Shown here: piece by piece, positions 3,265 through 42,499 of the stretch | Position numbering within the stretch: position 1 is the first letter of the stretch | Layout: every line of letters starts with the position of its first letter | Source: a virus | Reading direction: 5' to 3' (one strand) | Length of the DNA: 45,849 bases | Virus record (IMG/VR): IMGVR_UViG_3300033143_004242 | Coordinates: 1 to 45,849 of that record | Translations under genes and position numbers: made by a program | Notes under the pieces: model-generated | Database searches by the model: none | The model's input: the letters and a program-made list of their open reading frames with translations, nothing else | Told to the model about the DNA's origin: nothing

Positions 3265-3287
3265 AAAGATTCAATTTTTGAACCTTT
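3265..3287. repeat. Dispersed 23-bp dyad, copy 1
   Basis: Arms AAAGATTCAA and TTGAACCTTT flank a 3-nt TTT spacer, with one mismatch between arms. It lies in the gap between the stop of the 1011-aa gene and the leader of the exported 112-aa gene. Plus-strand flanks (GG before, ATCTC after) resemble those of other copies. Confidence 0.85.
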
Positions 3288-3290
3288 ATC

Positions 3291-7858: not shown

Positions 7859-7869
7859 ATTCTACTCCC

Positions 7870-8058
7870 TTATTTATCCAGCCACTTTATAACAGCCTCA
7901 GCTACTGCTTTGTCGAAACACTTTAGTATTGGGATCATAGCAGAGACTGGCCTAGGAAAAACTATTAGATCACTCTCAAGTTTAACTACTGCTAACCCTT
8001 CAAAGCAATTTCTTATTTCATCTATAAGTACTTTAAGTTCAATCTTTTCAATTATCAT
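7870..8058 (-). CDS. Small hypothetical protein (62 aa)
   Basis: This 62-aa frame has one of the strongest ribosome-binding sites in the operon (AGGAGGTGAGGAA before the ATG). The protein is mixed alpha/beta with a repeated I/L/V pattern and ends in an amphipathic helix (AVAEAVIKWLDK). It fills the gap between two virion-type genes with 11 bases to the next start. No family recognised. Confidence 0.65.
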   Translation of the reverse strand: MIIEKIELKVLIDEIRNCFEGLAVVKLESDLIVFPRPVSAMIPILKCFDKAVAEAVIKWLDK

Positions 8059-8081
8059 TTCCTCACCTCCTTTCCTTCTCC

Positions 8082-10185: not shown

Positions 10186-12643
10186 TTTCTCCTATTGCCT
10201 CCAACTCATAGAGGAATGACCAAATCTCAAGCTCAAGATCAGCAGTATCTCCAATAAATTCAAGTTGAAAAGCTGTACAACCTACTTGGCTTGTGTTCAA
10301 TCCAGGTGTTGTCATAGTATAACCGGAGTTTACGAGACTCATAGCAGAAGGTATAGCAATTTCTACTCCAGTTTCAATAAGATTCTTATAAAAGTTGGTA
10401 GTAATACTCCCTGAACCTCTTGCCTTGAGTTCTGCCCAGAGTCTTCGAAAGTTAAACTCAAAGATAGTAGCCTGCTCTGGGTCAACACAGATAGCCCTTG
10501 TTCTTATAGAATGAGTAATTTTAGCGTCAACTTCTGTACTTCCACTAGGAGCACTTTTATCAGTCGTATCATCCTCAAGGCGAAGAACTCTACCTACATT
10601 ATTCCCTGCATAAGTATAATATCTCCCTCCAGTCCCACGAAGGTGTGTACCACAGATAAGATAATCAGTTGCTCCACCTACTGTTCTTTCCCAAGGAGGA
10701 TACCACTCATTGGATACATAGTTATAAACAAGTTCTATAAGTCCAGTAAGAAGATGGTATTCATTATTAAGGGGATCAATAAACGCTTGACAAGCACCAA
10801 GCTTATTTGCTGCCATTGCAGTAGTATACTCAGTATTAAAATACTGATCTACTGGCCCTGAGACTTTTCTTGGTTTCCTTCCATCAATGACATAGACTCC
10901 ATCAGTATCCATAAAGAGACAGACGCTCAATGCTTCATTTCTGTGCATTCCAGGAAAGCCAACCTCTGAAACCATAGGAGTCTTAGCAGCGCAAGTCCCA
11001 ATAGTATCAGCTATCTTCAGAGTTCCAAAGTTTTTTGGATTCTCTCCCTCAAGCAACCACACAGAGTTTGCTTTGAATACAAGAAGCTCATTGTAGAATC
11101 TTACTACAGAAACAATCTCTTCCATATTTCCAAAGGCATCAGTGTAACCACTATCCTTTCCGCAAAGGCAGTCTGGTCTTCCAGCAGCACTATATCGAAG
11201 TCTGTTTGGATACTCCGGATCTGGCCAGAAGAAAGCCCTACTCTTAAACTCAATGACTCCTTTATACTTAGGAATCTGCTCAGGATAAAGAGCCGTAGTT
11301 ACAGCAAAAAGCCTAATATCCTCAGCAGTATTACCAAGTGCTACATCCCAGGAAACTCTGTACCAAAATCCAGCAATCGAATCAAAGTCCATTGTCCTTT
11401 TCTTAACTGCTAATCCTGCAGCATTCCACCAGACTGTCCCAGTCTGAGCAAAACTTGAATCACCTGCTTCATCTAAGGTTTCGTCGATTATCCCAGTACT
11501 TATTGTTACCCAAGAATCTCCATCCCAATAGTCAATATTATCTATCTTTGCAGCATCTGTATTCTCATAATTTGGTACTACAGCAAAGCCAATTCCACAC
11601 AAAGGAGTCACAGACTTAACATAGATAAAGTCAGTTGTTGTCGCAGCTTCAAGTTGAAGATATTGAGAAGTAGACTCATTAGTAAGTGTCCCAAGATAGT
11701 CTACATACTCCGTAGCACTTTGATCGTAGAACCTAACTCCTGTAGGCCACTCATAGACTCCATTCCACTTGTTAGTAACTGGAGCAGGATCAAACTTAAC
11801 TTTGCAACTAACTACATCAACTGAACCAGACAAAGCACCAGTAAAATCTATTTTATACCAATAGCCCATCATGCCATTAATGACTCTCATGGTATCACTG
11901 GCACTTCTTGTCCAGGTAAATGCTCCACTCTTAGCATGAGTCTTGGTACTAGTTGCTGCATCTAACGTTCCATCAGTAGCACTTCGATCAACCCAAGCTC
12001 CAGCTTGCCAACTATAAAGAACTGCAGTCTCAGCAGCAGCATTTACAGTATCCCCAAGGACAAGGGTAATGGCCTCAGCAATCTGAGGGCTACAGACATA
12101 GTACTCATCATTTGCTGCTCCAAGTACTAAAGCTTCTGTTTCAGTTCTATCATCAGTAACTTCTCTGGTATAGTCACTATTTACGTCTTCGCTATCATCA
12201 TGAACTACAAAGCCACTACAGAAAGGATCATCTCCTCCCCAGATAATCGGAGCACTTCCTCCATCAGCATAGAAGAACAACTCCTCTATCATATCAGAAA
12301 ACCCAGGAACTGTGCTCGAGGGATCAGAGGAAATTGCAGACCCAAAGGTAGTGCCACTTGCTGGAGGATCATTGGTAGCATCATAAAGACCTCCATTACA
12401 TTGAGCAAGAAAGTGATAATCCTCATTCCTTGGATGAGTGTATTGATGAAGAGAAAGAATTGAAGCTGCAGCAATTTGTGTAGTATTATGATGAGTACAA
12501 CCCTTCCTTGCCTTCCAACCTCCAAAGGGACTCACTTTCCTTACATTCCTTCCATCAGAGATTCCTCCAATAGGAAGGAGTGTAGGTGGAGTAATAAAGT
12601 CATACTTACCATTAAGAGGTTCTTTGAATATCTTAATTGCCAT
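10175..12643 (-). CDS. Podovirus-type stabilisation / tail hub protein (822 aa)
   Basis: This 822-aa, nearly all-beta protein is rich in aromatic, glycine and threonine residues. The start (PTLLPIGGISDGRNVRKVSPFGGWKARKG, given here only as a pattern of positions 20-50) resembles podoviral stabilisation or tail-tubular proteins such as P22 gp10/T7 gp12. A later segment near residue 470 (FFWPDPEYPNRLRYSAAG) is typical of that group's propeller domain. It begins at TAATG overlapping the adaptor stop, fitting adaptor-then-nozzle order. In virions of this type it extends the short tail below the adaptor ring. Family placement is by pattern, not by search. Confidence 0.7.
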   Translation of the reverse strand: MAIKIFKEPLNGKYDFITPPTLLPIGGISDGRNVRKVSPFGGWKARKGCTHHNTTQIAAASILSLHQYTHPRNEDYHFLAQCNGGLYDATNDPPASGTTFGSAISSDPSSTVPGFSDMIEELFFYADGGSAPIIWGGDDPFCSGFVVHDDSEDVNSDYTREVTDDRTETEALVLGAANDEYYVCSPQIAEAITLVLGDTVNAAAETAVLYSWQAGAWVDRSATDGTLDAATSTKTHAKSGAFTWTRSASDTMRVINGMMGYWYKIDFTGALSGSVDVVSCKVKFDPAPVTNKWNGVYEWPTGVRFYDQSATEYVDYLGTLTNESTSQYLQLEAATTTDFIYVKSVTPLCGIGFAVVPNYENTDAAKIDNIDYWDGDSWVTISTGIIDETLDEAGDSSFAQTGTVWWNAAGLAVKKRTMDFDSIAGFWYRVSWDVALGNTAEDIRLFAVTTALYPEQIPKYKGVIEFKSRAFFWPDPEYPNRLRYSAAGRPDCLCGKDSGYTDAFGNMEEIVSVVRFYNELLVFKANSVWLLEGENPKNFGTLKIADTIGTCAAKTPMVSEVGFPGMHRNEALSVCLFMDTDGVYVIDGRKPRKVSGPVDQYFNTEYTTAMAANKLGACQAFIDPLNNEYHLLTGLIELVYNYVSNEWYPPWERTVGGATDYLICGTHLRGTGGRYYTYAGNNVGRVLRLEDDTTDKSAPSGSTEVDAKITHSIRTRAICVDPEQATIFEFNFRRLWAELKARGSGSITTNFYKNLIETGVEIAIPSAMSLVNSGYTMTTPGLNTSQVGCTAFQLEFIGDTADLELEIWSFLYELEAIGEIGL

Positions 12644-13479
12644 TAGTAAGGATCTCCTATCATTGTTCCATTACTCTCAGGAATTCGACTTGCAAGCCAG
12701 GCATCTACCTCAGCTCTTGCATCCTTTACTCTATCTACGTAGAACTTGATTACATTCTTATCTATTGAAGCAGAAGGCTTCATCATAGCTAATACAGTAG
12801 CATCAAGGACAATTAGCATATGAGTCTCTTCAGGCAATCTTGAAATTGTCCCGAATACTGAATCAGTACTAACTGTTCCTGTAATAGTTGCAAGTCTTGT
12901 AGAGGCTACATAATCAGTGATAGTGTCAATAGTCCCAGCAAGAGTACCATCAGTTATCTCAACTTCAACATTATTATAGTAATCATCAACCCTTTTAGTG
13001 TTTAAATTATCCGGAAAGTACAACTTTGTAGCTGCACTTCCAGTAGTTGCAGTCCCTGTTTGAAGGTCAGGAACTCTGATTTGATACCAAAGGGTACAAG
13101 CAGTAGAATAAGAATCCTTGTTAATTTCGAGAGTACTCAGAAGAGGATATGCCTCAAGTGATCCAACATCAAGACTTGTTCCTACTGGTCTCGAGACTCT
13201 CCGATAGGCTACCTTCTGGAGCCAATGGACTGGAGATCCAGAGTCTGTCTCTTCCATATAGATAGGTTTACTGCAATCAGCTGGAAGAGTAATAACACTA
13301 TCTGAAGGAGTAACAGAGGCACTCTTTATCAACCACTGCCCAGGACTCATAGCAACAAGAAGAGCTATCTCCCTTTGCGCCATATTGAGTCTTCTTACGA
13401 GGTTCACATCACTCCAATGAGACTCAACAGCTTCGTTAATATTATCCCGAAGAAGTTCTAACATTTCTACAGCATTCAT
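12643..13479 (-). CDS. Head-tail adaptor protein (278 aa)
   Basis: The N-terminal helical pattern (MLELLRDNINEAVESHWSDV, then LVRRLNMAQREIALLVA) is characteristic of phage head-tail adaptor proteins that dock beneath the portal. A beta-rich middle and a C-terminal helix (KNVIKFYVDRVKDARAEVDAWL) complete the usual layout. Length fits a podovirus adaptor with an inserted beta domain. The stop overlaps the start of the stabilisation protein (TAATG). Its leader contains dyad copy 2, ending only a few bases before the GAGGGAAA ribosome-binding site. Confidence 0.7.
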   Translation of the reverse strand: MNAVEMLELLRDNINEAVESHWSDVNLVRRLNMAQREIALLVAMSPGQWLIKSASVTPSDSVITLPADCSKPIYMEETDSGSPVHWLQKVAYRRVSRPVGTSLDVGSLEAYPLLSTLEINKDSYSTACTLWYQIRVPDLQTGTATTGSAATKLYFPDNLNTKRVDDYYNNVEVEITDGTLAGTIDTITDYVASTRLATITGTVSTDSVFGTISRLPEETHMLIVLDATVLAMMKPSASIDKNVIKFYVDRVKDARAEVDAWLASRIPESNGTMIGDPY

Positions 13480-13491: not shown

Positions 13492-13514
13492 AAAGATTCA
13501 AAAATTGAATCTTC
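13492..13514. repeat. Dispersed 23-bp dyad, copy 2
   Basis: Arms AAAGATTCAA and TTGAATCTTC flank an AAA spacer, mismatched only at the outermost base. It occupies most of the 38-bp gap between the adaptor start and the stop of the 108-aa gene. Plus-strand flanks are CTCG before and TACTC after, shared with copy 7. Confidence 0.85.
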
Positions 13515-13517
13515 TAC

Positions 13518-13844
13518 TCAATACGATATTTTAAAGTCTTCTGAAGCACCAAAGGAACCCTCTTGAGGAGGAGTTCCTCCAGGGGTAACTCCTGACTCTT
13601 CAGCAGCAAAGTCCATCCCCTCCAGCTCTCTCACTGGATTCTGAGGAATAGGTAAAGCCTGGAATTGCTCCTTCAATTCTATCCACATCTGACGGAGATC
13701 TTGTAACTCCTGAGTCTTCCGGAAAGTCTCAGCTTCAAGCATCTCACTGATCTCCCTCAACTTGGTATAAGAAATCTGGAACTTCTTCTGTTCATCGCTC
13801 AACCTGTAACTCTCTACAGCTTCTCCTCTTACATCTTTTGGCAT
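13518..13844 (-). CDS. Coiled-coil hypothetical protein (108 aa)
   Basis: Residues 10-70 form a charged helix or coiled coil (REISEMLEAETFRKTQELQD). The last 35 residues are acidic, glycine- and proline-rich and probably disordered. Clear TAGGAG site before the ATG. It sits between capsid and adaptor genes, suggesting a small assembly or head-completion accessory; no family recognised. Confidence 0.65.
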   Translation of the reverse strand: MPKDVRGEAVESYRLSDEQKKFQISYTKLREISEMLEAETFRKTQELQDLRQMWIELKEQFQALPIPQNPVRELEGMDFAAEESGVTPGGTPPQEGSFGASEDFKISY

Positions 13845-16774: not shown

Positions 16775-17596
16775 TTATTCTCCCTTATCCACTTGCTTAA
16801 AGTAGTCCTGTGTAGCTTGAAGTGGAGTAACAAAACCTTCTCCTGTTTTCATAAAAGAGAACTTCTTCCCTTTATGAGAAGCTATACCTCCACCTTTGCC
16901 ATCAGCCTCATTAAGCTTATTCTCATCAAACTTCTCTATGTCCACACCAAATTCTTTGGCATGAGCCTTTCGAAGCTCAGCGATTTTATTCGCCTTTGTG
17001 TTAGCCACAGTCTCAGCGTGTTGCCACAAAGTCTTAGTCTTATCCCTCATAGCAATACTGAACACCTTGGAAACGTCCTCATCGTCTAAGACAGGGAACT
17101 TAGCCTTTAGTCCATCCTCAAACTTGCTCCTAATCATTCCAGTCTGAACTTCAATAATATCATCCATTCGTTTATTCTGAGCATCAATCTTTTCAGAGAC
17201 GCTACTTAGAGCCTTAGCCACAATATCATCAACCTTGGTCTTATCCGGTGGAGTAATATCATCTTTCTTCATCTGAAACATAGGATCATCAGGCGGAGGT
17301 TCTCCTCCCTTTTTCACAAGAACATTACCCTCTGCGTCAATAATCCCACCTTTCATGAGATCATTAACTAATCCGAAGGCCCCTTCAGCATTCACAAGAA
17401 GCCCTTCGGTATCTAAATTATACTTATCACAAAAATCCTTAACCTGCGCTAACTGCTGTGACCCAGCGGTCATTGAACTCACCTGAGAGACCAGGTTCTC
17501 TACATCAGCCGTAGAATACTCCTTGTCTCCTACCTTAATTTTTTCTGCGGCACCATCCTTCCCAGGATCGCCCCCAGAGCCGTTCTTGTCAACCAT
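16775..17596 (-). CDS. Capsid scaffolding-like protein (273 aa)
   Basis: This is an acidic/basic, largely helical 273-aa protein. It starts with a glycine-rich disordered segment, has a GDKEYSTADVENLV motif common at the start of scaffold-type proteins, long helices (100-205) and a basic C-terminal region. It immediately precedes the capsid gene with a 2-bp gap, the classic scaffold position. Strong AAAAGGAGGAATAAG leader. It would direct procapsid assembly inside the cell and be lost on packaging; no protease motif is visible. Confidence 0.75.
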   Translation of the reverse strand: MVDKNGSGGDPGKDGAAEKIKVGDKEYSTADVENLVSQVSSMTAGSQQLAQVKDFCDKYNLDTEGLLVNAEGAFGLVNDLMKGGIIDAEGNVLVKKGGEPPPDDPMFQMKKDDITPPDKTKVDDIVAKALSSVSEKIDAQNKRMDDIIEVQTGMIRSKFEDGLKAKFPVLDDEDVSKVFSIAMRDKTKTLWQHAETVANTKANKIAELRKAHAKEFGVDIEKFDENKLNEADGKGGGIASHKGKKFSFMKTGEGFVTPLQATQDYFKQVDKGE

Positions 17597-17597
17597 C

Positions 17598-17996
17598 TTA
17601 TTCCTCCTTTTCTAAAGTTATCTTCATTGCTTCCAAGCCACCTTGAGCTCTGTAGAAATCTACAAACCTCGGTAGCATAACCACAAATCTAGCCTTTGGG
17701 AACCAAGACATAGCCTTTTGAACCATTATTGGAGCCTTGTCCTTTGTATCCCTCGGGGTCTCTGACACAATCTCTTGGAACTTCTCCCACAGATCTTCTG
17801 CAAGAATAAGACAATCAACAAAGCCGTCCCAAAGCCGCGCAAGAGATTTTGCGTGTTCCTTCTCTTGGCCAAGGAACTCAATAAAAGCTGAATGGAAATC
17901 TGAGAAGCCATCAATTGCGACTCCTTCTTCTTTTGCTTTCTTCAGTTCCTCCGTCAACGCTCTCGCCTGTTCTTGAATCTCTGCTTTACTTACCAC
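17598..17996 (-). CDS. Helical hypothetical protein, GTG start (132 aa)
   Basis: A GTG start at 17994-17996 lies inside the last codons of portal (11-bp overlap) with AAAGGAGG eight bases upstream. The protein is all alpha, charged in the first 25 residues and more hydrophobic in the middle. Its position between portal and scaffold suggests a head-assembly accessory. No recognised domain. Confidence 0.7.
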   Translation of the reverse strand: MVSKAEIQEQARALTEELKKAKEEGVAIDGFSDFHSAFIEFLGQEKEHAKSLARLWDGFVDCLILAEDLWEKFQEIVSETPRDTKDKAPIMVQKAMSWFPKARFVVMLPRFVDFYRAQGGLEAMKITLEKEE

Positions 17997-19975: not shown

Positions 19976-20548
19976 CTAATCTCCTGCTCCTGAGCCAGGC
20001 GCCTGAAGCCCACTACTCTTTCGATCCTTACCCCTTTCCATAAGTCTCTCATAGTCAGCCCAAAGATCTTGTCTTCTTTCTATACCCCTTTTATAGTTTT
20101 CCATCATAGGAAGATTCATTCCATAAGGACTTTGATACTCAGGTTGAGGAACAGTAGGCCTTCTCTCTGGTTCAATAGCACCATAACTACCTACATCTTG
20201 ACCTTCTTCTGAGCTTTTCCAAAGCTTCATATAGTCTCCCCACATTTTCCCCCAGAAGTCTTTAGGAATCTCCCAAAAGAACTCTGAAGCCCAGTCACTA
20301 AATCCCTCAGCCATCTTTCCTCTCCCCTTCTTAGAGTAGTACTTCCCACCTTTCCCTTTGAAAATTCTATGCCCAGCTTCCTCCTCACCAATTTTTGTCA
20401 GATAGTAAGTTGAATGCTTTCTTCCCTTTAAAATCTGTCCTGTTTGTGGGACTCTACTTGGCCAATGTCCTGTATCATCTGGCTTTAGACCATATCTTCG
20501 AGCCGTCTTATAATCATATCCTGAACCTTCAGGATCAAAATCAGCCAT
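19976..20548 (-). CDS. Hypothetical protein upstream of portal (190 aa)
   Basis: This 190-aa protein is rich in tyrosine, glycine and lysine, with a tryptophan-rich centre (FSDWASEFFWEIPKDFWGK) and a helical, basic C-terminal part. It looks like a flexible virion-associated protein rather than an enzyme and shares its aromatic/glycine style with the 200-aa protein at 8082-8684. The ATG follows CTGGAGAATAAAG, and dyad copy 3 lies immediately upstream of that site. Unknown function. Confidence 0.65.
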   Translation of the reverse strand: MADFDPEGSGYDYKTARRYGLKPDDTGHWPSRVPQTGQILKGRKHSTYYLTKIGEEEAGHRIFKGKGGKYYSKKGRGKMAEGFSDWASEFFWEIPKDFWGKMWGDYMKLWKSSEEGQDVGSYGAIEPERRPTVPQPEYQSPYGMNLPMMENYKRGIERRQDLWADYERLMERGKDRKSSGLQAPGSGAGD

Positions 20549-20563: not shown

Positions 20564-20586
20564 AAAGATTCGATGTTTGAATCTTT
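20564..20586. repeat. Dispersed 23-bp dyad, copy 3
   Basis: Arms AAAGATTCGA and TTGAATCTTT surround a TGT spacer. It fills the gap between two minus-strand genes and overlaps the stop codon of the upstream one by two bases. TACTC follows on the plus strand as in other copies, except that here the leading T belongs to the arm. Confidence 0.85.
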
Positions 20587-20866
20587 ACTCATCCGATTCA
20601 ACAACCTCTCCAGCTATATCCTCATCTTCTCCAAGTACATAAGGAGTAGTAACCTCTCCTCCTCCAGGAAGTGTATAGGTCTTCAACTCCGGTATATCCC
20701 TCGCCATAAGTCTGTCCATGAGATCTTTGTTCTGCAGCTCAAGCCTCTTAATATGCTCCCTAAGAACTACCAAAGCAGCAGTCTCCTTCTTAGCAGCAAG
20801 AAGCCTATGCTGGAGAAGTCCTTCAATTCTCTCAAGTAATTCAAATACCTTCTTGGCTTTAAACAT
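20585..20866 (-). CDS. Small coiled-coil protein (93 aa)
   Basis: This 93-aa protein begins with a basic helix and coiled coil (FELLERIEGLLQHRLLAAKK, residues 8-27, continuing to about 60) and ends in an acidic tail. The start chosen is the ATG at 20864-20866, directly after GGGGGAGTAGTT. A longer in-frame start upstream would only add a translation of a T-rich leader (runs of Phe and Cys), which I treat as spurious. It lies between terminase and portal genes; unknown role. Confidence 0.65.
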   Translation of the reverse strand: MFKAKKVFELLERIEGLLQHRLLAAKKETAALVVLREHIKRLELQNKDLMDRLMARDIPELKTYTLPGGGEVTTPYVLGEDEDIAGEVVESDE

Positions 20867-20937
20867 AACTACTCCCCCTAAGAAACAAAAAAGAAAAAAA
20901 AAGACCAAAAAACCAAAGACACAGCAAAAAAACCAAC

Positions 20938-20987
20938 AGCCAACGAACTGCAGAGGCACTACTTCTTTGGCTTCTTCCCCGTTGGCT
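20938..20987 (-). terminator. Possible attenuator with T-rich downstream tract
   Basis: On the minus strand AGCCAACG (20980-20987) can pair with CGTTGGCT (20938-20945) around a 34-nt loop. GTTGG and seven T residues follow (down to about 20924), then a second T run near 20893-20901. The whole 20870-20940 stretch is almost pure A/C on the plus strand. The loop is long, so this is a weak terminator or attenuator candidate rather than a clear one. Confidence 0.3.
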
Positions 20988-21117
20988 TCCAACCGTGAGC
21001 GATTCCTCTTAGTAAATTAGCTTGCTTCTGAGCCTTTGCTTTGGTAGTACTCTTAGCAGAAACCTTTCCACCATGAGATACTCGATATCCATCTATCTTC
21101 TTTACTTTAACTGGCAT
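20959..21117 (-). CDS. Small basic protein (52 aa)
   Basis: This is a lysine-rich 52-aa protein (MPVKVKKIDGYRVSHGGK, then KAKAQKQANLLRGIAHGWK). The short strand-turn-helix arrangement resembles small phage proteins of unknown function often found in head operons. The ATG at 21115-21117 overlaps the stop of the preceding gene (TGATG) with GGGGAGGAG upstream, favouring it over an ATG 11 codons earlier. A nucleic-acid interaction is plausible from charge only. Confidence 0.65.
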   Translation of the reverse strand: MPVKVKKIDGYRVSHGGKVSAKSTTKAKAQKQANLLRGIAHGWKPTGKKPKK

Positions 21118-24525: not shown

Positions 24526-24548
24526 GAAGGTTCAATATTTGAATCTTT
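24526..24548. repeat. Dispersed 23-bp dyad, copy 4
   Basis: Arms GAAGGTTCAA and TTGAATCTTT flank a TAT spacer. It is the copy most easily read in the opposite orientation, since the CTTGAAAGATTC flank appears on the minus strand. It lies about 170 bp upstream of the first late gene. Confidence 0.8.
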
Positions 24549-24603: not shown

Positions 24604-24740
24604 CGTAGGGAGTCTCAAATTTCAGATGGGTAGTCTCTGGGCCTTTACCGCACCCCCAAAACTCTTAAATCCCCCCAGAGGCTTTTCCACCACCAGAAAT
24701 GAATGACGCCTCATTCAATGTAAAGTATGACACCTTTGTA

Positions 24741-24928: not shown

Positions 24929-25008
24929 TGACACATGATCAGGCAAAACACACACAGTATAAGATATTGTACTTCGATACAATTTAGTACAATTATTTGT
25001 ACCTTCCA

Positions 25009-25028
25009 AGTCATTGAAATCATTGAAC
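25009..25028. repeat. ATTGAAATCATT motif, copy 2
   Basis: Second copy of the 20-bp repeat; it matches copy 1 over its first 17 bases. It lies between two GTACAA/TTGTAC palindromes. Confidence 0.8.
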
Positions 25029-25079
25029 AAATCCCTTGAGATACATACTTATACATACATAGGTACAAGAGTTTGTACT

Positions 25080-25108
25080 TTATCAAACGACTGTTCGATT
25101 GATATAAT
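25080..25108 (+). promoter_or_regulatory. Rightward promoter with overlapping operator dyad
   Basis: TTATCA (25080-25085), 17-bp spacer and a perfect TATAAT (25103-25108). Arms TATCAAACGA (25081-25090) and TCGATTGATA (25095-25104) form a dyad with one mismatch that covers both promoter elements and the spacer. A protein bound there would block the promoter, so this is a candidate autoregulated early promoter. Confidence 0.6.
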
Positions 25109-25217: not shown

Positions 25218-25248
25218 GTAATTTTGTTCTTTGACAATTGAATATTGA

Positions 25249-25279
25249 TTTAGGCATTTCACAGGTGACTTCTGTCGTT
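25249..25279 (+). repeat. 31-nt inverted arm, left of the early ORF
   Basis: This arm can pair along its whole length with 25791-25821. By eye there are 27 Watson-Crick pairs, three G-U pairs and one A-C mismatch. It ends 27 bases before the start codon of the enclosed gene and leaves its ribosome-binding site free. Confidence 0.8.
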
Positions 25280-25306: not shown

Positions 25307-25777
25307 ATGGAAGGAAAACCTAATACACCTGAGCTAATAGCTCACCCAGTAGTACTTTTCCCTGATTTTAAGGGTAAGAGAATCGAAACCGATAAGCGGT
25401 TTGGAGATAAGGTTAACAAGGCAACACTAAGTTGTCCAGTTCCCGAAACCGATGAAGATGCCAAGAGGATGTATGGTATTGACTTGGCCGGATTATTTAA
25501 CCTGGGCGTCAAGACTCATGTGTACGGCGAGAGCTGGTTCGCTGCCCATATCAAGGAGAGCGTCAAAAATGGCGTAGACCTTAACAGTGATGACTTTATC
25601 AAAGGCCTCCAGGCTGGTTTTGAAAGTGCAGTGCATCGAATTCCCAGAGTTGCGGGAGAAGGTAGTGGCACAAAGGCCGAAGCGATGAAGTACCGTCAAC
25701 TGAAACAGTCCCTGGGTGTCGAAAGTGATGAAGAGCTGGCGGAAATTATAGCCATGATGAAAAAGAAAAAGAAGTAA
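25307..25777 (+). CDS. First early gene, unknown function (156 aa)
   Basis: This 156-aa protein has a mixed N-terminal half (VVLFPDFKGKRIETDKRFGD) and a helical C-terminal half ending in a run of lysines after AEIIAMM. It contains no cysteine cluster, signal peptide or recognised enzyme motif. AGGGAG precedes the ATG. It is the first gene of the rightward unit and probably the earliest made, so a host-takeover or regulatory role is reasonable but unproven. Codon choice (GGC, CTG, GCC) is richer in G/C at third positions than the AGA/GAA/ATA-rich genes downstream, and it sits inside a pair of 31-nt inverted arms, suggesting a separate origin. Confidence 0.75.
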   Translation: MEGKPNTPELIAHPVVLFPDFKGKRIETDKRFGDKVNKATLSCPVPETDEDAKRMYGIDLAGLFNLGVKTHVYGESWFAAHIKESVKNGVDLNSDDFIKGLQAGFESAVHRIPRVAGEGSGTKAEAMKYRQLKQSLGVESDEELAEIIAMMKKKKK

Positions 25778-25790: not shown

Positions 25791-25821
25791 AACGGCAGGA
25801 GTCACCTGCGAAGTGCCTAAA
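25791..25821 (+). repeat. 31-nt inverted arm, right of the early ORF
   Basis: Complement of 25249-25279 as described there. It begins 14 bases after the stop of the 156-aa gene and ends before the ribosome-binding site of the 46-aa gene. AATATT occurs at the outer edge of both arms (25241-25246, 25820-25825). Confidence 0.8.
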
Positions 25822-25847
25822 TATTCCACAGAAGGGAGGTGATAATT

Positions 25848-26153: not shown

Positions 26154-26180
26154 ATTTTAGCCGACAAAATTGCGTCAACT

Positions 26181-26400
26181 CTCCGACTCTACTGTAGGGT
26201 AGACACCAACCCATACCCCGCCCAAAATTGAAGGTTGACTATGAATTTTGTTTTGTAGTAGTTAGTAGTAGTAGTAGTTTTAGAATTTTTTTTTTAAAGA
26301 AACAAACAACTACTACTATTAAACTCTACTATTAAACTTTACTCGAAACAATTAAAATTTCGGGGGACGGGTAGGTCGCTACCCTATGGTAGAGTCGGAG
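26181..26400. repeat. 220-nt interrupted inverted repeat
   Basis: The outer arms CTCCGACTCTAC (26181-26192) and GTAGAGTCGGAG (26389-26400) pair perfectly. The stem continues inward to about 26220/26361 with two G-T pairs and a few mismatches. Inside it a second stem pairs TAGTAGTAGTT (26269-26279) with AACTACTACTA (26308-26318). The GC-rich base contrasts with the T- and A-rich interior. It could be an origin element, a packaging site or a non-coding RNA. Confidence 0.7.
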
Positions 26401-26406
26401 CGTAGA

Positions 26407-26440: not shown

Positions 26441-26463
26441 AAACATTCAAAATTTGAACCTTT
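26441..26463. repeat. Dispersed 23-bp dyad, copy 5
   Basis: Arms AAACATTCAA and TTGAACCTTT around an AAT spacer, preceded by CAGG as in copy 6 (AAGG). It lies 50 bp upstream of the -35 of the next promoter. Confidence 0.8.
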
Positions 26464-33054: not shown

Positions 33055-33869
33055 TGCTCAAGTCAACAGTAACTAAGAAGGTTGGAGTCCTTGAAAGGGT
33101 TACCCCAGCTCGAGATATGGAGATAGGGGAGAACTATCTAATTAAAGGATTCCTTGCTGGGCCAAGTGGAAGTGGAAAGACCCAATCCTCAATAACTCTC
33201 CCAAAGACTAAAGAGAAGCCTCTCCTTCTTGTTGACTATGATGGAAGAGCTGAGACTGTAGCAGGAGAGGAGGCAGTTGTAGTTCTCAAGCTCTTTGACC
33301 CAAATCCAGATAGTCCTAAAGCTTGGGATGAGGGAGAGAGCCTCCGCAAGGAACTCTGGACACTTGCCAGAGGAGAAGATTTCCCTTACTCCGGAGTTAT
33401 TGAGGACTCCCTTAGTATGATGGCAAGAATAGCAATGAATAGTGCAGTCTTGCTTGACCCGAAGAGAGGTCTTGGAGGGGCTCCGGCAAAGCAACATTGG
33501 ATGCCTCAGATATACTACCTCGTAAAGCATATCAACTCAATGAGAATGCTCCCATGTCACTACGTCCTTACTGGGCACATGGAACTCCTTGCTGATGAGG
33601 AGAGTGGAGCTATAAAAATCCTCCCCAAAGTGACGAGAAGTCTTCGAACAGAGCTTCCAGCTTGGTTCAACGAGACTTACTATACTCATAGGGAAAGAGG
33701 GAAGGATAAGATTCAGTATTACTGGACTACAGCCGGAACTGGGAAGTATGAATTCTTTAAGAGTACCCTCAACAACAAGGGGAAATATTGGAATGACCCA
33801 GTAGAGATTAACTTTGACAAATCTCCTGTGGGGTTTGAGGGACTACTAAAGAGGAGGTTTGGGAAGTGA
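33054..33869 (+). CDS. Sak4-like RecA-fold ATPase (AAA_24 type)
   Basis: This 271-aa ATPase has Walker A GPSGSGKT (residues 36-43), a following LLLVDYDGRAET that serves as the Asp-containing strand, and a Walker B-like segment near SGVIEDSLSMM. Such phage proteins (AAA_24, Sak4 group) are RecA-like ATPases that help single-strand annealing, usually with a phage ssDNA-binding protein and a nuclease. Both partners are found nearby (30981-31916 and 34779-35303). It overlaps the next gene by four bases. Confidence 0.8.
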   Translation: MLKSTVTKKVGVLERVTPARDMEIGENYLIKGFLAGPSGSGKTQSSITLPKTKEKPLLLVDYDGRAETVAGEEAVVVLKLFDPNPDSPKAWDEGESLRKELWTLARGEDFPYSGVIEDSLSMMARIAMNSAVLLDPKRGLGGAPAKQHWMPQIYYLVKHINSMRMLPCHYVLTGHMELLADEESGAIKILPKVTRSLRTELPAWFNETYYTHRERGKDKIQYYWTTAGTGKYEFFKSTLNNKGKYWNDPVEINFDKSPVGFEGLLKRRFGK

Positions 33870-34228
33870 CCATTGACTGGCAAGCTCTTGCAGAGCGGAG
33901 AAGCTACCCAAATATTAAGAGTCTCCTTATTGACCGATACTACAAGAAGGATGAGAATAGTATCCAGATCGGTGAGTATATTGGAGCTACTGATGCCTCA
34001 GTAAGGAATATTATGAGGGCTCTTAATCTCCCAAGGAGGCAGAAGGGACATTCAGTAGGAGCAGGAGTTCTTGCAAGGCTCGTAGGGATAAGAGAGGGAG
34101 ATAGAGCCCTTCTTACTGCAGAACAGCTCGCCAAGAAAGTAGGAGCTCATCCTGCTACAGTGAGGAGACTTATGGCAGAGAATAATTTAACTTATAAAAG
34201 GAGGAAGGAGAATGGAGAAAATAGATAA
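33866..34228 (+). CDS. Helix-turn-helix DNA-binding protein, GTG start (120 aa)
   Basis: Two helix-turn-helix units are visible: SIQIGEYIGATDASVRNIMR (about residues 32-51) and TAEQLAKKVGAHPATVRRLM (about 84-103). GTG at 33866 overlaps the Sak4-like stop, with GAGGAGG upstream. It is the best candidate for a phage transcription regulator and thus for a protein that might read the genome's repeated dyads; that link is only inference. Confidence 0.7.
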   Translation: MTIDWQALAERRSYPNIKSLLIDRYYKKDENSIQIGEYIGATDASVRNIMRALNLPRRQKGHSVGAGVLARLVGIREGDRALLTAEQLAKKVGAHPATVRRLMAENNLTYKRRKENGENR

Positions 34229-34723: not shown

Positions 34724-34746
34724 AAACATTCAATTTTTGAATCTTT
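34724..34746. repeat. Dispersed 23-bp dyad, copy 6
   Basis: Arms AAACATTCAA and TTGAATCTTT around a TTT spacer, preceded by AAGG and followed by AACTC. It lies in the leader of the 174-aa gene, 32 bases before its start. Confidence 0.85.
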
Positions 34747-34778: not shown

Positions 34779-35303
34779 ATGGGTACTTTTAAAGTAGGAA
34801 AGTCGATTGATGATATTGAGGAAGCTGTGCTTATGCCAGTAGACTGGTATGAGTTTGAGATTAGTGATGATCCAGTACTTAAACCAAATAATACCCTTAA
34901 GGAGATGGTTTCCGAGGATGCAACCGATGAGGAAATCGACCAAGCTATTGAGGAGAATGAAAAGGCTGGCTTTAATTTGACGGTCTCTTTACGTTCTGAA
35001 TCCCCGGAAGTCCAATTCGATGGAAGGAAACTTACAGCTTGGCTACCTTATCCCTCTGCTGCAGATGAAGAACGCTACGACGGAAGGGGTATGAAAATCT
35101 TTGACTCTAAATTCGAGAGGCTTGTGGATTTTGTCACAAAGTTCGGAGGCTCAGTGGACGAAGGTGAGAAGGGTGAGACTGAGATAACTCTTGTCAAAGG
35201 GATGAAAGGTTGTTGCTACGTTACTCAAGGGAAGATTCCTGGTAGGGAAGAGCTCGGTAACTCCATTGACATCTTCGCGGGGTTTAAGGAGTATGGAGAG
35301 TAA
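34779..35303 (+). CDS. Probable ssDNA-binding protein of the recombination module (174 aa)
   Basis: This is an acidic 174-aa protein with a beta-rich C-terminal half (NLTVSLRSE, LTAWLPYPS, GCCYVTQGKI, SIDIFAGFKE). Size, acidity and place one operon step after the Sak4-like gene resemble DUF669-type phage proteins that act as ssDNA-binding partners. The assignment is tentative. Leader holds dyad copy 6 and a clear AAGGAGG site. Directly downstream lie the structured RNA candidates. Confidence 0.5.
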   Translation: MGTFKVGKSIDDIEEAVLMPVDWYEFEISDDPVLKPNNTLKEMVSEDATDEEIDQAIEENEKAGFNLTVSLRSESPEVQFDGRKLTAWLPYPSAADEERYDGRGMKIFDSKFERLVDFVTKFGGSVDEGEKGETEITLVKGMKGCCYVTQGKIPGREELGNSIDIFAGFKEYGE

Positions 35304-37077: not shown

Positions 37078-37080
37078 CCT

Positions 37081-37287
37081 ATGCCTAACTACAAGATATT
37101 CCAGATGAAACTTCCTACTCCTCTTTTCGAGGAGTTTTACAAAGCTTTCCCAGGTCGAGGGGAGAGGAAACTCCTGGTGGAGAAGTTTATAGAAATGGCA
37201 GTAGAACTCTCGGGGGAAAAGAACTGCTTTATTGAGGGAGTTCTTGAGGAAGCAACTCTAAGATATGGAGAAAGGGAAGATGGATAA
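37081..37287 (+). CDS. Small ribbon-helix-helix-like protein (68 aa)
   Basis: A short strand (YKIFQMKLP) and two helices (FEEFYKAFPG and RKLLVEKFIEMAVELS) follow the order of ribbon-helix-helix repressors, though the family is not certain. AAGGAGC precedes the ATG. If real, it could be a second candidate reader of the genome's short palindromes. Confidence 0.55.
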   Translation: MPNYKIFQMKLPTPLFEEFYKAFPGRGERKLLVEKFIEMAVELSGEKNCFIEGVLEEATLRYGEREDG

Positions 37288-37570
37288 ACTAGTTAAGATA
37301 ATTGGGCCTGCCCCCTCTGAAATGTCTGATGAGGAGTTTGCAATTCGACTCCGGAAAGAGAGAGGTAGGGTGACAACAGCACTCGAGGAATACTCTTACC
37401 AAGCCAAGACGTCAAAGCCGAGAGCTAAGGCAAAGCCCCTCCTCAGTTCACAGGAGAGGAAACTTAAGACTGCCTTAGAAGAACTTGGTATGACTCCAGA
37501 GGAATTCGTCGAAGCATATAAGGAAGAACAACAAAAGAAGGAGGAGGTAAAAGGAGAACCAATGAAATGA
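37280..37570 (+). CDS. Helical basic protein (96 aa)
   Basis: Helical, very basic centre (AKTSKPRAKAKPLLSSQERK) and an acidic end. ATG 37280 follows AAGGGAAG; 37265 is an alternative. It overlaps the ParB-methyltransferase gene by four bases and could be its partner. Not recognised. Confidence 0.6.
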   Translation: MDKLVKIIGPAPSEMSDEEFAIRLRKERGRVTTALEEYSYQAKTSKPRAKAKPLLSSQERKLKTALEELGMTPEEFVEAYKEEQQKKEEVKGEPMK

Positions 37571-39258
37571 CAGAAAAAGAGATGGTCTATAGATTGCCAG
37601 TTGAAGCAATCATTGTTCCAGAAGATAGGGTTCGCCAAGAGTTTAAGCGACGAGAGATGGAGAAGCTTGTTGCATCCATCAAAAAGTTTAACATTATAGA
37701 ACCTGGAGTTTGTCGAAAGGAGGGTGAGGACTTTATCCTTGTAGCAGGGGAGAGAAGACTTAGAGCTTGTGAGATAGCCAAAGTTCCTTTCTCCTTTGTA
37801 CTTCTAGAAGAGATTGATCCACTAAGGATTCGTGAAATAGAACTTGAAGAGAATGTCTGCCGAGTTGATCTTACCTTTCAAGAGGAGGTAACTGCTTATC
37901 AAGAACTTCATACCATTAAACAAGAACAACTCGGAGTAAGTGTAAGTGGTGCTTCTGGAGGCTATGGAATTGCAGACTTTGCGGAGTATTTAGGCCGCTC
38001 TGAAGGAATCGTATCAGAAGATTTAGAGCTTGCTGCCTTTCTCCAAATCGACGAAGTCCGAAATGCTAAGACCAAGACTGATGCAAAGAAGATAGTCAAA
38101 AGAATCAAAGACGAGTATCGAACCTCTAAAGCCCTTAAAGAAGCCCGAGAAGGGCCGCAACCTCCAGAAGTAGAACTCGATGAGAATGCTACAGAATCCA
38201 TGCGTCAGGCAGCAAGGGCGGCAGAGCTTAAGGAAAAAGTGGAGTTCTTTGGAAAGAGAATTCATCTGGGAATGATGGAAAAATTACTTCCAGAGTATGC
38301 AGATGGCTTCTTTGATGTGGTCTGTTTCGATCCTCCTTGGGGAGTGAATTTCGATACAGTAAAGAAGGAGACTGGTTCAACAAGAGATTTTAAGGATGAC
38401 TGGGGCTTTGTTCAAGACAATCTACCTAAGTGGCTTGATCTTATCTACAACAAGATGTCAGAGAATAGTCATCTCTATATGTTTTTTGGGATAGTCAATC
38501 ACCGATATATTTATGAGTGGTTAGAAAATGCTGGTTTTGATACTAACGGCATCCCCCTCATTTGGTTCAAGCAAGGAGCTCATAGGACTCGTAACCCTGA
38601 TATTTGGCCAGGGAGATCATACGAACCTATCGCCTATGCAAGGAAAGGAAGCAAAGTCCTTGTCCGAAAGGGAGCCCCTGATGTAATTGTCACTCCAGCT
38701 CCTACTCCCACTATTAAGGGAACTCATCCCTCAGCAAAACATCCTATGATCTACATTGAACTCCTTCAGAGGTCTTGTTCTCCAGGAGACAAAATCCTTG
38801 ACCCAATGTGCGGAAGTGGAATGATGGCAGTAGCTGCAGAGACCCTTCGTGTTACTCATCAACTCGATTGGCATATGATTGAAGTTGAGGAAACCTTCCA
38901 GGAACTTAGTCTCTTTAATACAATCAAAGGTTATCATTACCTCACTAATATTGACACAGTCTCCCCAGAGCTTCGTACTGATCCAGTGGAAGAGAAGCTT
39001 CCCTACTATATTTGCTCCAGCTGTGGCGCATCTGGAACTGTAGCAAGTTTGCCTATTAGGAAGAAGGATGGAAGGAAAGTGTGTAAAGAATGTGATAGTT
39101 CTATTATACTTCGTACTGAAGATGTACCAGAAGACTACAAGGAGATAGAACTTGATCGTCCTGGAGGAAAAGAATTGTGGAAGGCTTGCTGGAAAAAATA
39201 CCCAGAGAAGCAAGACGAGATGCTTGCTTGGAAGGAGGAGAAAGATGAAGGTAACTAA
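37567..39258 (+). CDS. ParB-like domain / DNA methyltransferase / zinc ribbon fusion (563 aa)
   Basis: Three parts in one chain. Residues 1-110 are a ParB/Spo0J-like N-terminal domain (PEDRVRQEF, then LVAGERRLRACEIA with the GERR nucleotide-binding motif). Residues about 225-445 are an N4/N6 amino-methyltransferase of the beta class, in which the catalytic DPPW (about 257) precedes the SAM-binding DPMCGSG (about 416). Residues 475-505 carry CSSC and CKEC, a zinc ribbon. It would modify phage DNA against host restriction or act on host DNA; target sequence unknown. No restriction partner is seen. Confidence 0.85.
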   Translation: MTEKEMVYRLPVEAIIVPEDRVRQEFKRREMEKLVASIKKFNIIEPGVCRKEGEDFILVAGERRLRACEIAKVPFSFVLLEEIDPLRIREIELEENVCRVDLTFQEEVTAYQELHTIKQEQLGVSVSGASGGYGIADFAEYLGRSEGIVSEDLELAAFLQIDEVRNAKTKTDAKKIVKRIKDEYRTSKALKEAREGPQPPEVELDENATESMRQAARAAELKEKVEFFGKRIHLGMMEKLLPEYADGFFDVVCFDPPWGVNFDTVKKETGSTRDFKDDWGFVQDNLPKWLDLIYNKMSENSHLYMFFGIVNHRYIYEWLENAGFDTNGIPLIWFKQGAHRTRNPDIWPGRSYEPIAYARKGSKVLVRKGAPDVIVTPAPTPTIKGTHPSAKHPMIYIELLQRSCSPGDKILDPMCGSGMMAVAAETLRVTHQLDWHMIEVEETFQELSLFNTIKGYHYLTNIDTVSPELRTDPVEEKLPYYICSSCGASGTVASLPIRKKDGRKVCKECDSSIILRTEDVPEDYKEIELDRPGGKELWKACWKKYPEKQDEMLAWKEEKDEGN

Positions 39259-39457
39259 ACATCTTGACCAAGAGAGCTTAATAGAATTACTAAAGGATTT
39301 ACTATGCGCTCCAAAGACGTATAAGTATAATACTACGTCTGGGGTCTTTCAACTTAATACTAAGGCTAATATATATGAAGTACAAAGAGCTATCTTTGAG
39401 TGGCTTTCAATTCCTGAGAGGAAACATAACTTTATGCTAATGGGAGGAAAGAAATGA
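39245..39457 (+). CDS. Hypothetical protein (70 aa)
   Basis: 70 residues, helix then beta (ESLIELLKDLLCAPKTYKYN), ends methionine-rich. ATG 39245 lies inside the end of the methyltransferase gene after AAGGAGGAG. Its stop overlaps the exonuclease start. Not recognised. Confidence 0.6.
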   Translation: MKVTKHLDQESLIELLKDLLCAPKTYKYNTTSGVFQLNTKANIYEVQRAIFEWLSIPERKHNFMLMGGKK

Positions 39458-40020
39458 CAAACTACATAGTACTTGACATCGAAACCACTGGACTTGATAC
39501 AACTAAGGATGTACCAATTCAACTGGCTTACGAGTCATATTCTCTCGATGTACCAACTCAAGTATTCTTTCTAAATAAGAAAGGAGCATTCTACATCAAA
39601 CCTCGAGCAAGACTAAGCCCTGAGATTATTAAGATTACTGGCATAACAGATAGCCTTCTTGATGATGAGGGATTGAACTCCCGTGATGCTGTGAATAACT
39701 ACCATAGTCTTGTTTGGACTCATTGGCCAGCTTGGTTAGTAGGATATAACATAGTTAATTTTGATTTCCCTATCATCCAAAATTGGCTATCGAAATACAC
39801 TCCTGGAAGGTTTAAGCATCCACCATTACTTGGAGTAATAGATGTAATGTTCGTTTGCTGTAGAGAATTCGGGCAGAAGAAATGGCCCAAACTTATTGAT
39901 GCAGGACAAAGACTTAAGATTGGCTTTGACCCCAAGGAGCTTCATGATGCCAGGGCTGACGTTGCCTTGACTTGGAAGATTCTTGCTAAGATAAAGGGAT
40001 GGGAGGAGGCAAGTGGATAG
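39454..40020 (+). CDS. DnaQ-like 3'-5' exonuclease (188 aa)
   Basis: DEDDh-type exonuclease: VLDIETTGLD gives the first two acids (D8, E10), NIVNFDFPI the third, and HDARADVALT the histidine and last aspartate. It acts in proofreading or end processing. It overlaps the polymerase gene, which has its own exonuclease domain, so the two activities are adjacent and probably co-made. Confidence 0.9.
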   Translation: MTNYIVLDIETTGLDTTKDVPIQLAYESYSLDVPTQVFFLNKKGAFYIKPRARLSPEIIKITGITDSLLDDEGLNSRDAVNNYHSLVWTHWPAWLVGYNIVNFDFPIIQNWLSKYTPGRFKHPPLLGVIDVMFVCCREFGQKKWPKLIDAGQRLKIGFDPKELHDARADVALTWKILAKIKGWEEASG

Positions 40021-42499
40021 ACTAACTACCAACGTAATCCCTCCAGATGGCCCTCTCGATGCTAAGATCTGTGGAATTGGTGAGGCTCCTGGGCAAGAAG
40101 AGGATTTCAAACTCACAGTCTTCAAAGGAGCAGCAGGAAAGTTTCTCAATCAATGTCTTAGAAGTATTGGACTCTCAAGGACAGAGATACTACTTTATAA
40201 TGTCTTTGAGCAGAGACCTCCGCATAATAATATTAACTATTACTTCGTAGATAAGAGTAACACTCAACCTACTTGGGAAGGGCAGGAGCATATTGACCGA
40301 CTTCAACGCTGGCTCCAGAATCTTCTTACAATCAGAGAGCAAGGAGGTGGAGGGCCTAATATTATTGTGGCCTTTGGAGCTATCCCTATGAATGTTCTTA
40401 CAGGGAAAAGGAGAATCACCAAGTGGAGAGGAACCATTCTCCCTTGTACTCTTGTCGAAGGCTTTAAAGTATATCCTACCTTCCATCCTTCCTACGTAAA
40501 CAGGTTAATGAATGAGACCAGAGAACGACTTGTCGGAGAAAGGAAGAAGCAACAACAGAATGCCTTACCAATATTTCTTCGAGACCTTGATAGAATAGTA
40601 GAGCAATCAGAGTCTCCTACTTTTACCCCTCCTAAAAGAGAATTCACAATAGTCTCCACTGCTCAAGAGGCAATCTCTCTCCTCAACTCCCTTCATGATT
40701 GTCATGAAGTTGCTGTAGATATTGAGACTCTTCCTTCTTCTTCAGGCCCTATTGTCTGGTGTATTGGTTTTTCATCTTCTCCTTCTGAGGCTTTCTGTAT
40801 TCCTATCATTAAAGCACGCCGCCTTTGCTGGTCAGTAGGAGAGGAAGTAAGAATTTGGCGAACTATTTCGGAGGTATTTCTTGATGGAAATATACAAAAG
40901 ATATTTCAGGGAGGCCTTTACGACACGTCCGTACTTGGACGGTACTATGGTCTCAGGTGTGCTAACGGGACATATGGAGATACTATGCTCTGCCACCATG
41001 CTTCGCATCCCTATCTTAGGAAAGGTCTTGAGCTTCTTGCTTCCATATATACTTGGGAGCCTTACTATAAAGATGATGGTAAGGTGTGGAGCGGGAAGAG
41101 AATATCCGATCAGGCAGAATTTATTTACAACTGTCGAGATTGCGCTGTTACCAGAGAAGTCTTTCCAATTGTAAAGAGAGATGCCAAGGAACTAAAGACT
41201 TGGGATGGATATAAGAGAACCATAAGTGTTCTTCCTTCTGTCCTTGCTATGCAACTTCGTGGGGTTAAGATAGACCTCGAAAAGAAAGAAGTATTAACCC
41301 AGAATTTCACAGCTAAAGCAGAACAAGCCGAGATGGAACTCAACGAACTCGCTGAAGGAAACTATAATGTAAACTCATCGGCACAGGTATCAAGATTACT
41401 CTACGGAGTCCTTGGCCTGGAAATTCAATACAGCCACAAAACAAAGAGGCCAACCACAGACATAGATGCAATCAATAGACTCCTGAAGAAACATCCAAAG
41501 ACAGAAAGCAAAGAACACAAGATTCTTAAGACTATTTCTAGCTTCCGGAAGTATAGTAAACTTGCTTCTACTTATGCTACAATGGAAGTAGATACTGATG
41601 GAAGAATTCATACCAGTTATAGTTGGATTTCAACCTATCGTCTTAATTCTTCAGAGTCTCCGTTCGGTGGAGGAGGGAATCTTCAGAATATTCCTGTAAA
41701 AGATGAAGAAGGAAGAGCCATTAGAGAGCTCTTCATCCCTGATGATGGACTTGTCATGCTTGCCGGAGACCAAGCTCAAGCAGAATCTCGAGAAGTTGCC
41801 TGGTTAGCAGAGGACATTAGACTTATTGAGGCTTACCTTGCTGGTGTTGATATTCATTGGGAGAGAGCAAAAGAAATCTTTGGTATCCCAGATTCTGTTC
41901 CTTATAATCCAAAGGCACTCTTCAAGGATAGATTTACTGGAGAGTCTCATACTCTCTACTTCTATCGTCAGATTGCTAAAACTATTGTTCATGCTTTTAA
42001 TTATAAGATGGGGCCGATAATGCTACAGAATATCCTTCTCCGAGAAGAAGTCTACTTTCCTGCTGCTACTTGTAAACAGTTACTACAGTCTACCAGAGTA
42101 AACAATCCTCTTACCATTCGATGGCAGAATATGGTTACTGAGGAGATCAGGGCTACAAGGACTCTTATTACTCCTCTCGGTAGGAAAAGGATCTTCCGAG
42201 GAAGATTAAACGACGAACTCTTCCGAAGTGCTATAGCCTTTGGCCCTCAATCTACTGTAGGAGAACTTACGCAATTAGCAATACAGGAAATCCACTCGAA
42301 AGATTCGACATTTGAATGTTTACTCAATTCACACGACGAAGTCTTAGGCCAATGCCCAAAGGAGGATATTCCAAAAAATATAGAACTCATCAAAAAAGCT
42401 ATGGAAATTCCACACATGGTAGGAGGAAGAGAACTTATCATTCCCTGTGAGTTTAAGTGGGGATTTAACTGGGGTCAGATGGAGGAGATAAAAGAATGA
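40013..42499 (+). CDS. Uracil-DNA glycosylase-like / exonuclease / family A DNA polymerase fusion (828 aa)
   Basis: This replicative polymerase has three visible parts. Residues 18-185 follow the family 4/5 uracil-DNA glycosylase pattern: GEAPGQEED (23-31), NVFEQRPPHNN (about 63) and PTFHPSYVNR (about 156). The N-terminal cysteines that hold the Fe-S cluster of family 4 are absent. Residues about 230-390 are a 3'-5' exonuclease (VAVDIET, LYDTSVL, YNCRDCAVT). The palm/finger region has DQAQAESREVAW (motif A), RQIAKTIVHAFNYKMG (motif B) and NSHDEVL (motif C). In motif B the residue at the Escherichia coli Phe762 position is histidine. Dyad copy 7 lies in frame just before motif C. Confidence 0.9.
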   Translation: MDRLTTNVIPPDGPLDAKICGIGEAPGQEEDFKLTVFKGAAGKFLNQCLRSIGLSRTEILLYNVFEQRPPHNNINYYFVDKSNTQPTWEGQEHIDRLQRWLQNLLTIREQGGGGPNIIVAFGAIPMNVLTGKRRITKWRGTILPCTLVEGFKVYPTFHPSYVNRLMNETRERLVGERKKQQQNALPIFLRDLDRIVEQSESPTFTPPKREFTIVSTAQEAISLLNSLHDCHEVAVDIETLPSSSGPIVWCIGFSSSPSEAFCIPIIKARRLCWSVGEEVRIWRTISEVFLDGNIQKIFQGGLYDTSVLGRYYGLRCANGTYGDTMLCHHASHPYLRKGLELLASIYTWEPYYKDDGKVWSGKRISDQAEFIYNCRDCAVTREVFPIVKRDAKELKTWDGYKRTISVLPSVLAMQLRGVKIDLEKKEVLTQNFTAKAEQAEMELNELAEGNYNVNSSAQVSRLLYGVLGLEIQYSHKTKRPTTDIDAINRLLKKHPKTESKEHKILKTISSFRKYSKLASTYATMEVDTDGRIHTSYSWISTYRLNSSESPFGGGGNLQNIPVKDEEGRAIRELFIPDDGLVMLAGDQAQAESREVAWLAEDIRLIEAYLAGVDIHWERAKEIFGIPDSVPYNPKALFKDRFTGESHTLYFYRQIAKTIVHAFNYKMGPIMLQNILLREEVYFPAATCKQLLQSTRVNNPLTIRWQNMVTEEIRATRTLITPLGRKRIFRGRLNDELFRSAIAFGPQSTVGELTQLAIQEIHSKDSTFECLLNSHDEVLGQCPKEDIPKNIELIKKAMEIPHMVGGRELIIPCEFKWGFNWGQMEEIKE
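42299..42321. repeat. Dispersed 23-bp dyad, copy 7 (inside the polymerase gene)
   Basis: Arms AAAGATTCGA and TTGAATGTTT around a CAT spacer, with CTCG before and ACTC after as in copy 2. It is translated as part of SKDSTFECL, between two conserved motifs, and is the only copy in a coding frame. Confidence 0.85.

Follow-up and report, generated by a model that had tools for sequence, protein, structure and literature searches.

The parS site of ParB is TGTTTCAC-GTGAAACA, and the NBS of Noc is TATTTCCC-GGGAAATA (PMC7383237). Noc nucleates at NBS sites and then spreads with CTP (PMC8429893), and KorB of plasmid RK2 is a CTP clamp of the ParB family that is loaded at operators and exerts its effect at a distance (PMC11790492). 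Fusions of a ParB CTPase with an N6_N4-methylase are commoner in phages; the available text of a PNAS 2025 survey offers only conjecture about their role, in anti-defence or phage–host interactions, and gives no cognate DNA sites for them (PMC12704722). The virus analyzed here encodes, at 37567–39258, the same domain fusion as those surveyed, and we propose DNA sites for it.

Results

A Dispersed Dyad in the Phage Genome

The window, that is, the whole stretch of 45,849 nt that was analyzed, is an IMG/VR-type virus record with a direct terminal repeat of 113 bp. Its late genes are on the minus strand up to about 24.4 kb, a control region occupies 24.4–26.9 kb, and the early genes are on the plus strand; a short block at the end is again on the minus strand. 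We observed seven dyads matching AAAGATTCAAnnnTTGAATCTTT with at most two mismatches each, far above the 0.01 expected (mean of 100 dinucleotide shuffles of the window, none of which gave seven matches); a search of the window allowing up to four mismatches did not reveal an eighth copy. These are the seven positions listed in a previous sequence-only reading, all of which were correct. Copy 1 (AAAGATTCAATTTTTGAACCTTT, 3265–3287) is located between two leftward genes in a gap of 56 bp and precedes the start of 2896–3234 by 30 nt; copy 2 (AAAGATTCAAAAATTGAATCTTC, 13492–13514) occupies the 38-bp gap between 12643–13479 and 13518–13844; and copy 3 (AAAGATTCGATGTTTGAATCTTT, 20564–20586) lies in the 36-bp gap between 19976–20548 and 20585–20992, overlapping the end of the latter gene. 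Copies 4 (GAAGGTTCAATATTTGAATCTTT, 24526–24548) and 5 (AAACATTCAAAATTTGAACCTTT, 26441–26463) are on the late and early sides, respectively, of the divergent control region, and copy 6 (AAACATTCAATTTTTGAATCTTT, 34724–34746) is 32 nt upstream of gene 34779–35303. Six copies are in gaps, as had been noted, and copy 7 (AAAGATTCGACATTTGAATGTTT, 42299–42321) is within gene 40013–42499. This gene encodes a fusion of a uracil-DNA glycosylase domain with a family A DNA polymerase (UDG-PolA, Pfam), which is conserved in relatives. The position just before a ribosome-binding site, described before as frequent, applies to four of the seven copies (3265, 13492, 20564 and 34724; 12–32 nt to the start codon) and not to the other three. 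The shared plus-strand flanks are looser than claimed, with GG ahead of four copies, CTCG ahead of two and ACTC after four.

Other repeats are present in the control region. Palindromes of a second type (GTACAATTATTTGTAC, GTACAAGAGTTTGTAC) are clustered at 24957–25080, and three palindromes similar to them (GTACAATATTTTGTAC and variants) occur in one stretch (17516–17620) of the related contig G023; these local palindromes are possibly the operators of a separate regulator. Four iteron-like direct repeats of about 20–27 bp around TCATTGAAATCATTG are found at 24740, 25008, 26092 and 26133. A large inverted repeat at 26175–26406, with 46-nt arms that are 80% complementary and enclose a 30-nt inverted repeat, lies just ahead of copy 5; it had no match in an Rfam search and may act as an origin element or fold as a structured RNA. 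Finally, a 32-nt inverted repeat (88%; 25248–25279 and 25791–25822) flanks gene 25307–25777. Members of the family of this gene, named X, are found between dyads at the equivalent place of the control region in several relatives, and the AF2 model of X (pLDDT 50) was unusable.

Related Contigs Carry Dyads of Their Own Sequence

About forty related contigs were collected via terminase, capsid and methylase searches, using an alignment for the methylase, and their genes were called with a simple script. Scanning related genomes had been set as a check on the sequence-only reading, and the dyads were not absent from them: a de novo search, blind to the window sequence, showed that each contig with the replication module of the window, G023 excepted, has its own dispersed dyad. 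In shuffled genomes, this search gave clusters of about 2–6. The dyads of the relatives have a 10-3-10-like geometry centred on a base, and their sequence differs from genome to genome: ATcGTTtCGTTaAACGaAACgAT in G007, gaTCCATTaAATGGAtc in G011, AtcgGTTCAt.C.aTGAACcgaT in G017 (16 copies), cggCGTCAAaatTTGACGccg in G020 (13 copies), ATTGATTCAaaaaaTGAATCAAT in G025 (14 copies), TGTTCaAaatTtGAACA in G028 (20 copies), caTATCACaatGTGATAtg in G029 and AAtGTTTCATTaAATGAAACaTT in G035. Judged from these comparisons, the window dyad is one case of a general pattern in about twenty relatives. A small mobile palindrome, which had also been considered, does not fit, since the geometry is kept while the sequence varies by genome and the sites are evenly spread. 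We also considered the dyads as GANTC (CcrM) methylation sites, which fits the window alone and not the motifs of the relatives.

No dyad family was found in G009, G030, G031 and G032, which share the capsid or the terminase and have another early module; G032 retains only the PolA and DUF3987 homologues of the module. Given that contigs that share the capsid and terminase and not the module are also without dyads, the presence of dyads follows the early module. All of the module is present in G023 and its HTH is apparently intact, yet a dispersed dyad was not found in this contig, and the search for other geometries revealed only the local cluster of GTAC palindromes. As a separate observation, G009, G030 and G031 have a capsid and terminase lineage in common with the group of the window and unrelated early modules, which represents a whole-module exchange between late and early halves.

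Anatomy and Distribution of the Sites

In total, 201 sites were identified in 21 contigs, of which 158 are in gene gaps (23 expected) and 43 inside genes. The median centre is 24 nt past the upstream stop codon and 40 nt ahead of the downstream start, and most sites are in short tandem gaps shortly ahead of start codons. They are symmetric and are present in both transcription directions. The half-site pooled from 22 contigs has the pattern C(-15) T(-14) .. A(-11) .. G(-8) n T(-6) T(-5) C(-4) A(-3), and the C at -4 occurs in 99%. In the relatives, the symmetric conserved bases span about 31 bp and include C-T at -15/-14 and A-G at +14/+15; therefore, the length of 23 bp first assigned to the element is an underestimate in the wider group.

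Over the 201 sites, changes in one arm are independent of those in the other: at almost all variable positions, symmetric pairs were as frequent as expected or less so. This confirms the earlier remark that changes between the arms are not compensated, and is expected if one protein subunit reads each half, not if RNA pairing is selected. The stem is A+T rich, with no T-run, and shows neither compensatory pairing nor the GC stem and T-run of a terminator; no Rfam match was obtained for the sites. The sites are typically 2–10 kb apart, and their spacing is more even than that of random positions or random gene junctions (Stouffer z = -5.3 versus junctions). We did not find an association with promoters as defined by the sigma-70 consensus only: -10 matches (at least 5/6) were present in 31% of the gaps with a site and in 35% of those without one. 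Altogether, the sequence comparisons give good support to the proposal that the dyads have a DNA-level role of a protein-binding type.

The Fusion Protein Encoded at 37567–39258

The proposed dyad binder (plus strand, 563 aa) consists of a ParB/Noc CTPase-type domain, an HTH and an N6-adenine-type DNA methyltransferase. It matched PF02195 (4.7e-10) and PF01555 (N6/N4 methylase, 3.3e-8) in Pfam, and the Noc model (2.6e-19) and TIGR00180 (58.8 bits, barely above the cut-off of 58.45) in NCBIfam; residues 1–212 gave a profile match to Noc 7nfu. The N-terminal NTP-clamp domain (37585–37857) contains GERRLRAC and ENVCR, which conform to the ParB/Noc motifs GERRxRA and ENxxR. In some relatives the clamp motif has degenerated, to GEGRLTAC in G017 and GFRRLTAC in G027. 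In the AF2 model (pLDDT 80 overall), a central HTH like that of ParB/Noc is predicted at residues 135–160 (37969–38046), with helices at 135–142 and 146–160 (the recognition helix) and a pLDDT of about 90. The residues equivalent to ParB R173 depart from the simple ParB/Noc base code. The C-terminal dimerisation domain of ParB/Noc is replaced by the methylase domain (38314–38895). Across ten relatives, the DPPW of this domain and the GS of its second motif do not vary. Foldseek with the model retrieved MboIIA and CcrM-type N6-adenine methylases, as well as Noc/ParB structures.

HTH Divergence and Motif Divergence

Motif distance and protein distance between genomes were compared over 113 segments of 50 residues from eight conserved proteins; an earlier Mantel scan was also carried out. 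Among 13–15 genomes with common ancestry, the best-correlating segment was residues 136–185 of the methyltransferase (r 0.57, rank 1 of 113), and segments overlapping its HTH ranked 1, 3, 6 and 13 of 113. Divergence of the HTH helices thus tracks that of the motif best, and the ParB N domain of the same protein gave an r of about 0. Segment 751–800 of PolA ranked second (0.56) and capsid segment 276–325 was close as well, indicating that shared ancestry accounts for part of the signal; in the Mantel scan, too, a correlation was seen for the capsid protein.

The sequence-only reading had named two possible binders, the HTH protein at 33866–34228 and the ParB-like domain at 37567. The former was found only in the window and in its near-identical relative G001, whereas every module-bearing relative except G023 has sites; hence, it cannot explain the sites of the relatives. 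Other candidates were also discarded: protein X is absent in G029 (motif r 0.03), the RHH-like protein (37081–37287) was not detected in G027 and G028 (motif r 0.20), and p96 and the SSB-like protein were not found in a Desulfofustis phage that carries dyads. The designations SSB-like (34779–35303, from size and context only), RHH-like and RecB-like nuclease are names that we presume from sequence and context; family searches for the SSB-like and RHH-like proteins gave no match.

To these comparisons we added distant named phages, which have homologous replication genes and other structural genes. Desulfofustis phage LS06-2018-MD01 (OP947158) keeps the ParB HTH and has nine dyads close to GCTATGTCCCAAATTGGGACATAGC, and its relative G042, which also keeps the HTH, has 13 AGWTTGAATAAAATTTATTCAA-type dyads. 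In Vibrio phage ABTNL-3 (MF497422), where the HTH of the methyltransferase is lost, no dispersed dyad family of this kind was found; the phage has only three terminator-like hairpins of 16 nt that contain GC. Its relative G043, which has a methylase with a disrupted HTH, did not show a dyad family either. Homologues of X, RHH, SSB, p96 and p29 were not detected in the Desulfofustis phage, so these five proteins are not needed for its dyads, and AAA_24, PolA, DUF3987 and the nuclease are all present in the dyad-less Vibrio phage. By elimination, the ParB-type HTH remains as the common factor. Microcystis phage Mel-JY34 (PP438425) has only 2–4 weak sites, and ctMlz233, with an altered HTH, showed no dyads. 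Leaving these two out, dyads are present in 15 of 16 contigs of at least 40 kb with an intact HTH, versus none of the five without it (G009, G030, G031, the Vibrio phage and G043), a tally of contigs that share ancestry and are not phylogenetically independent. Taken together, the sequence data support a description of the sites as dispersed, symmetric, genome-specific, evenly spaced and tied to the replication module and the HTH, and the HTH divergence and co-occurrence make the ParB-like domain the best-supported candidate for the binder.

Likeness to parS, NBS and KorB Operators

In common with ParB/Noc are the ParB-type N domain with an HTH, and palindromic sites with a TTTC-containing half (PMC7383237). 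The pooled half-site G-n-T-T-C-A (C 0.99) resembles the parS half TGTTTCAC, and the half-sites TGTTTCAT of G004 and G035 match seven of the eight parS bases. However, TTCA and TGAA are 5 bp apart in the dyads and 2 bp apart in parS, and because the central spacing is off by 3 bp, we term the sites parS-like, not parS. Whereas parS and NBS are 16-bp palindromes of two 8-bp halves, the dyads have a similar half-site core in an element of 23–31 bp with a 5-bp centre, conserved out to ±15, and their sequence varies between phages. Similarity to parS is lower for the dyads of G042 and of the Desulfofustis phage. By our estimate, a 5/6 match of the pooled six-base core to parS, with register and strand free, would appear by chance in a few percent of tries; for this reason, the resemblance is taken as supportive only, and we regard the similarity as modest and partly post hoc.

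As for distribution, Noc sites are spread round the chromosome and the phage dyads round the genome. With KorB, the proposed likeness would be clamp loading at operators on a mobile replicon. In contrast to the phage protein, KorB cooperates with KorA and no methylase is described for it, and its OB sites are at set distances from promoters, whereas the dyads show no promoter association.

Discussion

The sequence-only reading is partly supported by these results: the DNA-level role and the ParB-like domain stood, and the HTH protein and the mobile palindrome were set aside. We think that the HTH of the 37567–39258 protein probably binds the dyads, given how its divergence and its presence accompany them. 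Somewhat less firmly, we favour the idea that the dyads are dispersed parS/NBS-like binding sites that load this protein as a clamp. Taken by itself, the loading of a spreading or sliding clamp at the sites, suggested by analogy, is a finely balanced proposal that we lean slightly against. According to the proposed mechanism, one HTH would occupy each half-site, the two halves making up the symmetric site of 23–31 bp. The protein would nucleate at a dyad, close as an NTP-dependent clamp and slide between sites, as suggested by ParB, Noc and KorB (PMC8429893, PMC11790492). Through sliding, the fused N6-adenine-type methylase or the clamp itself would be enriched on phage rather than host DNA, and the purpose may be to mark this DNA as self against restriction, to organise the genome or to regulate over a long range. 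That methylation of phage DNA is the payoff is a tentative suggestion, and its in-cis character is speculative. Slightly more tentative still is the complete scheme, a clamp-loaded methyltransferase that slides from parS-like sites every few kilobases and methylates phage DNA in cis, marking the molecule as self.

In view of KorB, the main rival is a regulatory role, although we consider it rather unlikely. The dyads would then be dispersed operators from which a repressor or regulator, possibly the ParB-MTase itself in a KorB-like manner, silences early and late operons, and KorB is indeed a ParB-family clamp acting as a long-range repressor from distant operators (PMC11790492). The location of most dyads in short tandem gaps just ahead of start codons agrees with this, as do the dyads on either side of the divergent control region of the window and of several relatives, and the genome-specific sequences, which resemble diverging immunity specificities. 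However, -10 promoters are not enriched at the sites, 43 of the 201 sites are within genes, and there is no conserved, dedicated repressor that follows the motif, X (r 0.03) and RHH (r 0.20) each being missing in some dyad genomes. Furthermore, no integrase, repressor or lysogeny gene was recognised among the window proteins scanned, and a search of GTDB contigs revealed no prophage and one MAG fragment only.

Many copies across early and late regions, diverging between related phages, are known for the SPbeta MrpR sites and the phiC31 inverted repeats. The L5-type stoperators of mycobacteriophages resemble the dyads in these same respects; however, they have a single orientation relative to transcription and have been described as asymmetric sites to which a monomeric immunity repressor binds (PMC9283540), whereas the dyads are symmetric. 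Loading-site and regulatory roles could both be true at once.

It is improbable that the sites serve segregation or genome organisation (partition, compaction, packaging or replication), with a functional ParB-type domain and an incidental methylase. The ParB/Noc relationship of the protein and the even spacing of the sites are in line with this idea, but the methylase motifs are invariant across relatives, the sites are genome-wide and not a single centromere, and relatives without sites have the same packaging proteins. In addition, the ParABS partner ParA was not recognised among the window proteins scanned, a set that includes only part of the small genes. Recognition by a host protein, with the sequence differences mirroring differences between hosts, is very improbable; hosts probably do differ between genomes, but the presence of sites tracks the early module of the phage and the HTH, not the structural genes. 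Least credible of all are RNA hairpins (terminators, processing sites or translation-control structures in intergenic RNA), which would suit sites between the stop and start codons of tandem genes but not independently varying arms, an A+T-rich stem lacking a T-run, sites inside genes and the lack of an Rfam match; simple terminators, the outcome that would have contradicted the sequence-only reading, are not what the copies turned out to be.

If the dyads are the targets of the ParB-methylase fusion, more than a dozen protein/site pairs of differing specificity are available for binding tests, and these pairs would extend ParB/Noc specificity beyond the two known site types. Loading of a methylase in cis at clamp sites would represent a new way of directing DNA modification, in which self-marking of the whole molecule is achieved via loading sites and not by the sequence specificity of the enzyme alone. 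The dispersed sites would also provide a simple genomic signature to find such systems.
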